Part shown: piece after piece, positions 42,442 through 63,072 of the stretch
How positions within the stretch are numbered: the first letter of the stretch is position 1
Layout: every line of letters begins with the position of its first letter
Source of the DNA: Lentilactobacillus otakiensis DSM 19908 = JCM 15040
GTDB taxonomy: Bacteria; Bacillota; Bacilli; Lactobacillales; Lactobacillaceae
Length of the DNA stretch: 64,000 bases
Assembly (NCBI RefSeq): GCF_001434145.1
Contig: NZ_AZED01000008.1
Coordinates: forward strand, 62,001-126,000
Reading direction: 5' to 3'
The notes under the pieces: generated by a model
The model's input: the letters and a program-made list of their open reading frames with translations, nothing else
What the model was told of the DNA's origin: nothing
Databases searched by the model: none
Position numbers and translations under genes: made by a program

Positions 42442-42566
42442 AAAACAACTCTCCTTAACAAAATTCCCCCACTCCTCAGAAAATTGTTGGTTACAGCGTA
42501 TCATATATGAAGAAAATCGTAAAATTGATTCAAAATATGTTAGAATTTGGTTATTCAAATAAGATC

Positions 42567-42648
42567 ACTAGGGGTGCCTTGTGCTGAGATGGCGATTTGC
42601 CAATCCCTTTGAACCTGATTTGGTTAATACCAACGTAGGGAAGTGGAA
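42567..42648 (+). promoter_or_regulatory. TPP riboswitch (THI element)
   Basis: Conserved blocks GGGGTGCC, GCTGAGAT, CCCTTTGAACCTGATTTGG and TTAATACCAACGTAGGGAAG occur in order. No intrinsic terminator follows, so control is probably at translation initiation. It precedes a 23-codon frame and tenA. Confidence 0.95.
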
Positions 42649-42650
42649 AA

Positions 42651-42722
42651 ATGACAACAACATGTACCAAGTCTGGTCGCGTTCTGTTTGAAAATTTTGC
42701 TTTAAGGAGTATTGACTCATGA
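42651..42722 (+). CDS. Possible 23-codon leader ORF coupled to tenA
   Basis: ATG at 42651 directly after the riboswitch 3' strand (AGGGAAGTGG could act as its ribosome site), then 23 sense codons (starts MTTTCTKSGR, ends LRSIDS), with TGA overlapping the tenA ATG as ATGA. It may be a coupling leader peptide, a relic, or chance. Confidence 0.35.
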   Translation: MTTTCTKSGRVLFENFALRSIDS

Positions 42723-59030: not shown

Positions 59031-59178
59031 GATTTTGCTGGCTTGGTTCCGCCTGCCATAGTGGCACGAATTTCGAGCCTGTAGTCTCGAAATATCGTGG
59101 TGTTGTAATCGCTGATTTCATCAGCTTCAACAACACTTTCACTACGGCTGGCAATACCAAGCCAGCAAAATCCGGCTA
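59031..59178 (-). repeat. Structured repeat, class 2, copy F
   Basis: A branched inverted-repeat element. A perfect 16-bp outer stem GATTTTGCTGGCTTGG / CCAAGCCAGCAAAATC (59031-59046, 59157-59172) encloses two hairpins. One has arms GTGTTGT/ACAACAC; the other has the arms ATTTCGAG/CTCGAAAT extended by CACGA/TCGTG. Read on the minus strand it aligns with copy G and keeps pairing although the helices differ in sequence. Confidence 0.8.
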
Positions 59179-59189
59179 CAAAGAGTTGA

Positions 59190-59217
59190 GTCTACAAATG
59201 AGTTTGTGGACTTTTTT
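59190..59217 (+). terminator. Terminator of the B6 operon region
   Basis: GTCTACAAA / TTTGTGGAC (one U-G pair) followed by T6. Confidence 0.75.
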
Positions 59218-59330
59218 ACTTTGCGGATTGTATGCGTCTTTGGGAAGGTAAGCATCTTTCATATTCCTAATATATTTGCGGAAACGTCGTTAATGTCCTA
59301 GTGGTGATCAAAGTTAGAACCATCTTCAAA

Positions 59331-59483
59331 GTAGCCGTGTCTCAGTTCGCCGGCATTGCCAGCAGTAGTGTCAATGCTGTTGAAACGACTGAAAGTCGTG
59401 ATTACAGCATCTTGGTATTTCGAGACTACAGGCTCGAAATCCAAGCCACTACAGCAGGCGTGGCCGGCGGGCTGAGACACGGC
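59331..59483 (+). repeat. Structured repeat, class 2, copy G
   Basis: A 21-bp outer stem (59334-59354 with 59463-59483, beginning GCCGTGTCTCAG / CTGAGACACGGC, with two G-U pairs). It contains GTAGTG/CACTAC, a hairpin with arms ATGCTGT/ACAGCAT and inner ACGACT/AGTCGT, and the invariant ATTTCGAG-ACTACAGG-CTCGAAAT hairpin extended by CTTGG/CCAAG. It lies 113 bp upstream of pepC. Confidence 0.8.
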
Positions 59484-59596: not shown

Positions 59597-60922
59597 ATGA
59601 CTGATAAGAACAGTGTTTTAACTGATAAAGATTTCTCGGAGCTCCACAATGATTTCAAAAGCGCACCAAAGAGTGATGTGTTATCGAGAATCATTGAGCA
59701 AAACGGCATTAACCAAGCTGCCCAGGATCCCGACGCCCAAGTTCGTTTGAATCCAGTGTTTTCGGTGGATTTGCAGACAGGCTCAGTGACTAATCAGAAG
59801 CAAAGCGGCCGCTGCTGGTTGTTTTCTCTGGTCAACACGTTGCGTCACCAATTTGCATCGAAATATAAGGTGAAGGATTTTAATCTTTCACAAAAATACT
59901 TATTCTTCTGGGACAAAATCGAACGGGCCAATATTTTCTATGATCGAATTCTGGCAACCGCCAGTCGGCCTGCCGATGACCGTGAAGTGGAAAATTATTT
60001 GAGCTTTCCTGGTGATGATGGTGGCCAATGGGCTATGGCAGCCGCATTGGTTCAAAAGTACGGCGTGGTTCCGGTGAGCGACTTCCCTGAAACTGCCAAC
60101 GTGGAGAATACCGGCGCATTTGATATCGTTATGAATCGGAAACTGCGGATCGATGCTGCTAATCTTCGCCAAATGGTCAAAGGCGAAAAGTCCGATGACG
60201 AAATTAGTGCCGCTCGCAAAAAGATGTTGAGCGAAGTTTATCGAATCACGGCATACTCATTCGGTGAGCCGCCAACAACGGTTGACTTTGCTTATCGGGA
60301 TGATGATAAGAAATATCACAAGGTTTCAGGTCTGACACCCAAAGAATTTTATGCCAAATACTTTGACGTTGATTTGGACGACTACGTGGTTTTGTCGAAT
60401 TCGCCTGAGAAGGATTATAACCAGCTGTATTCCCTGCCCAGTCAAAATAACGTGGTCGGTGGTAAGCAAATTCAGTTCCTGAACTTACCAATGGATGTCC
60501 TGAAAAAAGCGACGATTGCTCAGCTCAAAGACGGTGAAACTGTCTGGTTTGGCAATGATGTTCTTGAGCAAATGGATCGCAAGAAGGGCTTCCTCGATAG
60601 CCACTTATTCCGTTATTCAGAATTGTTCGATACGGATTTGGAAATGGATAAAGGCACTCGGCTTCAATATCATCAAGCCGAGGTTTCCCACGCCATGACC
60701 TTTACCGGTGTTGATTTGGATGGCGACACCCCAACGAAATGGAAAGTTGAAAATTCTTGGGGCGACAAGAATGGTGAGAAAGGTTACTTCACGATGAATG
60801 ACGACTGGATGGATGACTATGTCTATGAAGTAGTTGTTCACAAAAAGTATCTCTCTGACGATCAGAAAACCTTGCTGAAACAGGCGCCAATTGAATTGCC
60901 AGCTTGGGATTCGTTGGCATAA
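59597..60922 (+). CDS. pepC: Aminopeptidase C (C1B cysteine peptidase)
   Basis: 441 residues, bleomycin hydrolase family, full length. Catalytic Cys73 in QKQSGRCWLFS, His in EVSHAMTFTGV and Asn in VENSWGDKNGEKG. Cytosolic hexameric peptidase removing N-terminal residues from casein-derived and other peptides. GGAGGG precedes the ATG. The PepC/PepE/PepG subtypes cannot be fully separated by eye. Confidence 0.93.
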   Translation: MTDKNSVLTDKDFSELHNDFKSAPKSDVLSRIIEQNGINQAAQDPDAQVRLNPVFSVDLQTGSVTNQKQSGRCWLFSLVNTLRHQFASKYKVKDFNLSQKYLFFWDKIERANIFYDRILATASRPADDREVENYLSFPGDDGGQWAMAAALVQKYGVVPVSDFPETANVENTGAFDIVMNRKLRIDAANLRQMVKGEKSDDEISAARKKMLSEVYRITAYSFGEPPTTVDFAYRDDDKKYHKVSGLTPKEFYAKYFDVDLDDYVVLSNSPEKDYNQLYSLPSQNNVVGGKQIQFLNLPMDVLKKATIAQLKDGETVWFGNDVLEQMDRKKGFLDSHLFRYSELFDTDLEMDKGTRLQYHQAEVSHAMTFTGVDLDGDTPTKWKVENSWGDKNGEKGYFTMNDDWMDDYVYEVVVHKKYLSDDQKTLLKQAPIELPAWDSLA

Positions 60923-61281: not shown

Positions 61282-63072
61282 CTATTTTTGCTCATCCTGT
61301 AATTCATTTGAATAAATCAGCAGGCGTTGCGCATAGCTTGGGTGATCAAAGGTGGATTTGATGGTTCCTTTAAGCTGGGTCAGATTATCCGTGATGATAC
61401 CATCGACGTTTAAGAATAACATTTTAGTCATATCGGGCTCATCGTCCACGGTCCAAGCATAGACCTGCTGACGGCGAAAATGGGCTTCGTTGACGAACTG
61501 GTCATTGAGAGTGGTTTCCTCCATCGTGTAAGCATTCGCCTTGGTCTGTGGGAACGAGAAGTTGTAGGGCAGAATGTAGCTGACAAATAGTTTGGGTGCC
61601 TGTTTCTTCAATCCACTGATTACGTCATAATCAAGTGAATGAATATGGTCATGATCACTTAATAGCCGGGTTTCGTAACGTTTAACAAATAGTTTTAACA
61701 TATCTGGACTGTCATGAGACGTTGTTTTGATTTCAACCAACAGCTTTTGGTGATCGCGCTCAGCAGCCTTTAAATATTGATCAAAGCTGGCAATATGCGC
61801 TGTGTGGCCATTTTCATGAACTTTTAGCTTCGTCATCTGTGAGAGGGTCATCTGGTAGGGCGCCTTATTCACACCAGCCAGATTTGATAAATTCTCATCG
61901 TGCATGACGACAAATTGATGATCCTTGGTTTCATGCAGGTCCATTTCAACGTAGTCGGGCTTATCCTTACTGGTTCGGTTCAGTGCCGGAATGGTATTTT
62001 GGACCCCATTGCCATCATTGACGCCGCGGTGAGAAATCGTTGCCGGGCGGCTCAATAGAGCACCTTGAAGGTAGACGGCATTGAAGGTGACATCACCAAT
62101 TAAGAATAAACCAATTAGTACAGCACCCATCAACCGCCGGCCAATTCTTCGCTTGCGGGGGAGACGAGTGACGACGGATTCAGTGTGCCATTTGGATTCA
62201 TCTAGAACCATTAACAGGATCAGCATAAACACAACCACACTGAATGAGGCGACCAGCCGCTGCCAGACGGTTAGGAGACCCATGTTGGTAATTGCACCGA
62301 CGAAGCCGATCAGCTTGGCCTGCGAATCCAAATACGTTTGCAAGAAATAAAGTAGGTAAGAGACGATGGTCGTCGAGGCCAGACTGATTAATCCCAAGAC
62401 AAAGATTCGCCACAGGTACTGCCAAGTGTTATGCCGCGTTAGCTGCCAACTGTTTTTGGCAGCCTCAAGTCCGCGCTGATGATGAATAATCATCATTGGC
62501 AACACTTGGATCAAACGAATGCTTAGATAGAAGATTGCGATACCCAGAACGGTGATCAAGATAGCTATTAATGGCTTTTTCTCTAAATCATCTAAAATGA
62601 ATGTCGGAATGGTGGCTTTGGAAAGCAGCGGTGAATTGAGGTAGGCAACTGAGAAGGGTAAGACCAAAATAAAGTAGCCAATGAAGAACAAAAAGCTACC
62701 TAACCGCAATCGCCGCATGTCATGAATCGCGTTCTTGAAAACTTCCCACAGACTCATATTCTGTTTGAGGGCAATGTTGTTAATGCCGTAAAGCAGAAAA
62801 GCAAACTGCCAGAAGACGAGGGCAAAAATCACCAGCAGTAAGATGAATAATTCCACAACTGCCAGGGGCTTTTGTGTCAGCAGCCAAACTGCGTTGGTGT
62901 ATGACAGATATGGGATCCGGTTGATTTGGAGAATTAATCCGGTCACATACTGCATGATTGGAACGACTACGATGCCTAATAATAAATTAATAATAATGAC
63001 TAAACTGACATAGGCACCCCAGTTGTTGAAAAATGTTCTGATTGATCGTCGTAAAAGCTTGTTGCCTTTCAT
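61282..63072 (-). CDS. Membrane glycerophosphodiester phosphodiesterase
   Basis: 596 residues. The N-terminal ~330 residues hold eight or so membrane segments (GPDP membrane domain). The C-terminal ~250 residues are the GDPD catalytic domain: ISHRGVNDGNGVQNTIPAL (His-Arg, catalytic His), YVEMDLHETKDHQFVVMHDENL (Glu-Asp metal site and second His), LLVEIKTT and QVYAWTVDDEPDM. It hydrolyses glycerophosphodiesters or lipoteichoic-acid-related substrates at the cell surface. GAAGG precedes the ATG. Confidence 0.92.
   Translation of the reverse strand: MKGNKLLRRSIRTFFNNWGAYVSLVIIINLLLGIVVVPIMQYVTGLILQINRIPYLSYTNAVWLLTQKPLAVVELFILLLVIFALVFWQFAFLLYGINNIALKQNMSLWEVFKNAIHDMRRLRLGSFLFFIGYFILVLPFSVAYLNSPLLSKATIPTFILDDLEKKPLIAILITVLGIAIFYLSIRLIQVLPMMIIHHQRGLEAAKNSWQLTRHNTWQYLWRIFVLGLISLASTTIVSYLLYFLQTYLDSQAKLIGFVGAITNMGLLTVWQRLVASFSVVVFMLILLMVLDESKWHTESVVTRLPRKRRIGRRLMGAVLIGLFLIGDVTFNAVYLQGALLSRPATISHRGVNDGNGVQNTIPALNRTSKDKPDYVEMDLHETKDHQFVVMHDENLSNLAGVNKAPYQMTLSQMTKLKVHENGHTAHIASFDQYLKAAERDHQKLLVEIKTTSHDSPDMLKLFVKRYETRLLSDHDHIHSLDYDVISGLKKQAPKLFVSYILPYNFSFPQTKANAYTMEETTLNDQFVNEAHFRRQQVYAWTVDDEPDMTKMLFLNVDGIITDNLTQLKGTIKSTFDHPSYAQRLLIYSNELQDEQK

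Follow-up and report, generated by a model that had tools for sequence, protein, structure and literature searches.

The inverted pair of folded elements F and G in the window (the whole 64,000-nt stretch of Lentilactobacillus otakiensis DNA analysed here) is best read, with a probability of roughly 0.6, as the two outward-pointing structured arms of a single gene-less, MITE-like unit belonging to a repeat family of the Lactobacillaceae. The fold, its covariation, the divergent pairing and the distribution are observed directly. The unit in the window would itself be an old copy of such a mobile element that has lost its ends, a descent argued from arm homology and the shared layout of the pair.

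Fold and layout of the F/G pair

Folding computed for both elements gave F and G one multibranch fold with compensated helices (Table 1), as an earlier sequence-only reading of this DNA had proposed. The helix replacements listed there between the two copies, the constant TTGCCAGC and hairpin ATTTCGAG-ACTACAGG-CTCGAAAT, and the outer stems, which are 16 and 21 bp long and unrelated, are all present. Its remark that G-U pairs lie in the sense orientation of both copies agrees with counts of 6 on the sense versus 1 on the opposite strand in F, and 3 versus 0 in G. Both strands of either arm fold well, with RNA energies of -84.9 kcal/mol for F (opposite strand, -79.5) and -95.5 kcal/mol for G (opposite strand, -88.0). 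The 3' end of F is directed out of the unit to a transporter-like gene upstream, and that of G to a pepC-like gene at 59597. Letters resembling the terminator-like hairpin of the spacer also occur upstream of the F arm at two further sites of this genome (B and D).

Table 1. Positions of the two arms, their spacer and the R1 covariance-model matches
Feature	Window position	Contig position	Strand	Description
Arm F	59031..59175		minus	16-bp outer stem, then a stem with an A/A mismatch, then a junction with two hairpins
Arm G	59334..59483		plus	Same fold as arm F; outer stem of 21 bp
Spacer	59176..59333		none	Separates the 5' ends of arms F and G
Terminator-like hairpin and T-run	59189..59217		plus	Within the F/G spacer
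R1 match on arm F	59038-59165	121038-121165
R1 match on arm G	59345-59472	121345-121472

A known RNA family was rejected as an identity for the arms, in line with the earlier failure to recognise one: Rfam covariance models matched nothing in the 701 bases scanned at E up to 5, and a further Rfam scan matched at four places, none of them on the arms. A coding reading was likewise set aside: although some arms are crossed by an open frame, copies differ by one-base indels and their stem letters change freely.

Copies in the genome holding the window

The search for further copies with covariance models, which the sequence-only reading had called for, returned many in this genome, in the genus and across the Lactobacillaceae. 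A DNA search of the genome against itself gave 13 matches, made up of 11 copies that are full or nearly so, plus two short inverted echoes. The R1 model gave 19, namely those 11, one copy cut by Ns and seven weaker antisense matches that are copies counted already, for a total of 11 full copies and a twelfth that an assembly gap interrupts. This twelfth is the G-type copy at site B, where a run of 10 N (G000:C4 about 62625-62694; L014 1270-1339) probably marks a gap in the assembly at the hairpin. At sites A, C and D, each pair combines one F-type with one G-type arm, and at site B the pair partner is the N-cut copy.

The likeness of the F and G folds is no chance result, because it extends to 11 full copies in whose alignment both sides have changed in 20 of 48 pairs and 94.7% of cells are paired, versus 28-42% after shifting partners by 1-3 columns. 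Many pairs are broken in two of the copies (L003 and L006). Strand asymmetry, by which we mean an excess of G-U over A-C, is clearly evident only with many copies: the 11 own-genome copies hold 11 of each, and 9 and 3 remain after removal of two decayed copies.

Covariation and strand asymmetry

The large alignment comprised 148 matches from 94 chosen loci, or 143 distinct rows. Fitted to the covariance model and hence leaning towards it, it shows both-side changes in 47 of 48 pairs across the distinct copies. Double-change cells number 2065, as against 594 after shuffling and 310-555 after partners were slid, and 91.6% of cells are paired, as against 38-43% with slid partners. The outer stem is paired in 97.5% of cells and uses the pair types nearly freely, and the short inner helices also covary. 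The near-constant letters are GTG-AAA (junction), TT and TTA (P2), A-G-A and GGCT (P3), and CCCA.

On one strand, 146 rows held 305 G-U versus 100 A-C (two antisense rows, part of the 148-match covariation set, were left out here). By part, G-U to A-C stood at 30:11 for the outer stem, 28:22 for the stem that follows, 2:9 for the lower and 71:6 for the upper part of P2, and 174:52 for P3. Of 47 copies, 32 were more stable on the sense strand (Wilcoxon p 4e-5). Six orthologous arm sets, from which two decayed copies were excluded (F at site D in the window's genome, G at site C in G013), carried 38 G-U and 3 A-C on the sense strand and 12 and 3 on the antisense strand. Changes between orthologous arms, tallied in 18 comparisons that are not independent of one another, comprised 99 double changes, 50 one-sided changes that kept pairing and 101 that broke it, 39 of the last from a single decayed copy.

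A folded single strand is favoured because of the G-U excess on one strand; this asymmetry and the constant loop letters together argue for recognition of that strand by some partner. As a first guess, the folded form would be RNA rather than single-stranded DNA.

Part of the covariation may come from template correction within stems or from conversion between copies. That such DNA processes are its main source, with template switching and conversion preserving pairing in a fold that is never used, appears quite unlikely. This explanation would accommodate the surplus of double over one-sided changes between orthologs, the nearly free choice of pair types and the few G-U in the outer stem, and the A-C majority in lower P2. 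It is at odds with the G-U excess overall and even in the outer stem, with unpaired letters that stay near constant across genera, and with the covariation of the short inner helices.

Distribution among relatives

R1 matched 7 of 24 genomes of the genus and 18 of 397 genomes of the Lactobacillaceae. Unconstrained folding of 21 weaker matches gave, in most cases, a 3-way junction or a 4-way one that has an additional hairpin; L054 and the remnant L039 adopt these forms poorly. A second model, R2, built on 22 distant matches, detected the family in 134 of the 397 genomes and 15 of 40 genera, with at most 7 candidates scored per genome. Fuller scoring raised the counts to 149 matches in G331 (150 candidates scored) and 89 in G147, antisense echoes included. 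Among 395 genomes drawn from the order, 35 matched R2, 26 of them Lactobacillaceae and nine from one genus in another family of the same order. Each of these nine (G571, G601, G628, G639, G666, G684, G696, G702 and G711) has one weak match, at E 4e-5 to 3e-4.

A strict pattern run over 84,980 named species genomes found 90 stretches, and all 80 among the matches listed belong to Lactobacillaceae (Companilactobacillus, Levilactobacillus, Lactiplantibacillus, Secundilactobacillus, Furfurilactobacillus and one uncultured Lactobacillus bin). The genus g4, which includes G147 and G331, is probably Companilactobacillus, and our data suggest Levilactobacillus for genus g15. A phage or plasmid origin of the arms was rejected: the pattern search of viral contigs found no arm family member, phages searched for the G arm gave none, and plasmids searched with the F arm, a G147 unit and an L079 unit gave none, the one plasmid result being a partial match of 59 bp between an L076 unit and a Levilactobacillus brevis plasmid.

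Divergent pairing and shared sites

Copies lying at most 600 bp apart are divergent, with 5' ends facing, in 45 of 47 cases (two tandem, none convergent), and in 36 of 38 once nine pairs fetched as pairs (L135, L143, L150-L156) are omitted. The F/G spacing in the window conforms to this arrangement. Neighbours farther apart than 600 bp included three convergent, one divergent and one tandem pair. Terminator-like hairpins occupy 11 of 45 spacers, that of the window (L001) included, versus 5.3 expected, and a central terminator was rejected as a general part of the unit on these numbers.

Inverted doublets with a mainly intergenic location, and the TAG/GTAG edge seen by eye on the 5' side of many arms, recall REPIN-type elements moved by a RAYT (Y1) transposase. 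We consider this identity extremely improbable and rejected it. The Y1_Tnp domain (PF01797) occurs in 7 of 24 genomes of the genus, yet in just one of the seven with R1 matches, and is absent from the genome holding the window; moreover, the arms measure about 150 nt and the g4 units carry 8-bp duplications.

The unit sites of the L. otakiensis genome are common to related species. At site C the whole unit is reversed in G022 (482 bp, 73% identity), and at site B the F arm is reversed between G000, the genome holding the window, and G001 (181 bp, 88%). The opposite orientations of a whole unit at one site in two species (L016 1475-1947 and L026) suggest an inversion or a second insertion. Loss or decay at shared sites is seen in the absence of F at site A in G001, the decayed F at site D in the window's genome and the remnant copy L039 in G015. 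A clean empty site D was sought in the relative G008, which proved too diverged. Flanking frames of 62 units were tandem in 40, convergent in 8 and divergent in 8, six units having no flanking frame, and 13 of the 62 overlap a predicted open frame of at least 110 aa. A preference for convergent gene ends, of which these counts gave no sign, was rejected.

These shared sites bear on whether the arms are working host RNAs, either small RNAs or segments of transcript ends, which transposition spread and the host now retains for a purpose such as protecting or forming 3' ends. Such a role would be in keeping with the continued folding of most orthologous arms, also in the window's genome where terminal repeats are invisible, with more double changes than independent change would produce in most of the 18 non-independent comparisons, and with the sense-strand G-U excess at orthologous sites. 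The loss and decay of copies at sites A and D and in L039, the mixed gene contexts and neighbouring genes that share no common function by eye speak against it, and we regard it as unlikely.

Mobility in two g4 genomes

Terminal repeats, target duplications and terminator targeting demonstrate mobility of the family in two g4 genomes. Among 30 loci of G147, the 70 longest matches span 274-801 bp at 82-98% identity. An inverted repeat close to GGTTCTTTCTTAARTTRGRTTAGT lies outside the arms; at up to three mismatches it has 27 matches in G147 and 17 in G331, versus 0 for the backward control. The same threshold gives 0 matches in the window's genome, and the window unit has no visible ends. Both ends were present in 19 units of G147 and G331, of 281-528 bp, which are too short for a transposase gene and carry none (ten loci checked by eye for frames). 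On average 5.8 of their 8 flanking bases agree, versus 3.5 for mispaired flanks. The resulting 8-bp target duplications are imperfect: at least 6 of 8 bases agree in 12 of 19 units, versus 7.3% of mispaired flanks, and 7 or 8 agree in only 3 of 19 (1.5% expected), L127 and L161 having a perfect or 8/8 duplication.

Every one of the 19 end-bounded units has at least one arm. Only four (L127, L145, L168 and L186) have two at the thresholds used, the ten of G331 having one each, and the divergent pair and the end-bounded unit therefore coincide only partly. L165, which has one end match and stands outside the 19, has no arm. Since terminal repeats, duplications and copies up to 98% identical occur in two g4 genomes, the setting is mobile DNA. 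Of the earlier reading as selection on a folded RNA or DNA cruciform, a conserved multibranch structure kept by compensatory change is supported, while the object is a mobile repeat family and not a lone RNA gene.

Terminator targets and the candidate mover

Once one duplication is removed, a terminator-like hairpin can be seen by eye in the flanks of L127, L142, L168, L169, L175, L183, L185 and L186, and its loop is where the insertion lies. Flank complementarity exceeds that of permuted flanks (0/20,000; p 5e-5); individually, 7 of 19 units fall below the 5th percentile and 12 fall short of the 5% level, with no complementarity in L163, L167, L177 and L187.

Elements of the ISL3 family are marked by an 8-bp duplication and a family end sequence. 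All 16 ISL3 copies in G147 and G288 (loci L190, L191 and L194-L207) are flanked by perfect 8-bp duplications, and about 11 of these copies lie in or directly after a stem-loop (by eye); the flank complementarity test on the same 16 copies gave p 0.004. An ISL3 element of Enterococcus faecium, inserted halfway through a terminator with an 8-bp duplication according to passages of PMC11702846, points the same way. An ISL3-family transposase is probable as the mover because of the duplication length, the target class and the first bases of the ends, and the units are thus most likely moved by it in trans. Agreement between ISL3 ends in G147 and unit ends is confined to these first bases, and the inner repeat differs. 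A 79-aa remnant is the only ISL3 match in the window's genome; G331 has one partial match, and the family-bearing genome G339 has none. In G331, a 389-aa frame beside a terminal-repeat match (L171 206-1375, plus strand) has what we take to be a TnpB/IS605-type appearance.

A model of the element and its relation to known systems

In the reading that we prefer, the young form of the family, seen in the two g4 genomes, would be a unit of the size given above with one or two arms between terminal inverted repeats. It would often insert, with an 8-bp target duplication, in the loop or A/T-run of rho-independent terminators, most likely through an ISL3-family transposase acting in trans. The arms are predicted to fold on the outward-reading strand around a 3-way junction, elsewhere a 4-way one, and their fold and near-constant junction and internal-loop letters are kept while stem letters vary. 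The folded strand, RNA or single-stranded DNA, may be recognised by a protein during or after movement. Units in the window's genome would be old, as judged from sites common to related species and the absence of a visible terminal repeat; most of their arms have kept the fold.

A more far-reaching and tentative proposal, which we think possible but somewhat doubtful, is a family-wide class of transposable structured RNAs. The payload of the mobile element would be a multibranch RNA of about 150 nt, present once or twice, reading outward and with a fold conserved over the Lactobacillaceae, planted at the 3' ends of host transcripts by terminator-seeking transposition and acting on those ends or recruiting the transposase.

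Like ISL3-moved MITEs, the units are short and gene-less, with terminal inverted repeats starting GGTTCT, 8-bp duplications and the terminator targets of ISL3 copies. The present family differs in its long arms and in a branched fold conserved over many genera; furthermore, the inner terminal repeat departs from the ISL3 seen, and ends are absent from the window's genome. REPINs and REP doublets, as presented in passages of PMC3116915, also spread as an inverted doublet of folded repeats, mainly between genes, whereas the present arms are about 150 nt long and multibranched, have target duplications and show no Y1/RAYT link. The repeats bcr1-bcr18 of the Bacillus cereus group, according to portions of PMC3446304, are intergenic, some MITE-like and some with a conserved secondary structure predicted to function as RNA; the divergently paired Lactobacillaceae arms are set apart from them by description. 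Among open-licence papers we recognised no description of the arm family, and the terms Lactobacill, Firmicutes and Gram-positive do not appear in the main text of PMC3733652.

In common food bacteria the family reaches dozens of copies per genome, and its covariation is very strong, yet Rfam has no family for it. Two questions become testable with it: why a MITE-like element should retain a branched structure, and whether the hairpin is recognised by elements inserting into terminators. It also carries a caution, since one copy of an element of this kind can be mistaken for a lone structured RNA gene.

Elsewhere in the window, a TPP riboswitch (RF00059, 84.6 bits) at 42560-42658 on the plus strand lies upstream of a frame at 42720 that starts MKFSEELVAAGQPILHEIY and presumably encodes a TenA-type protein.
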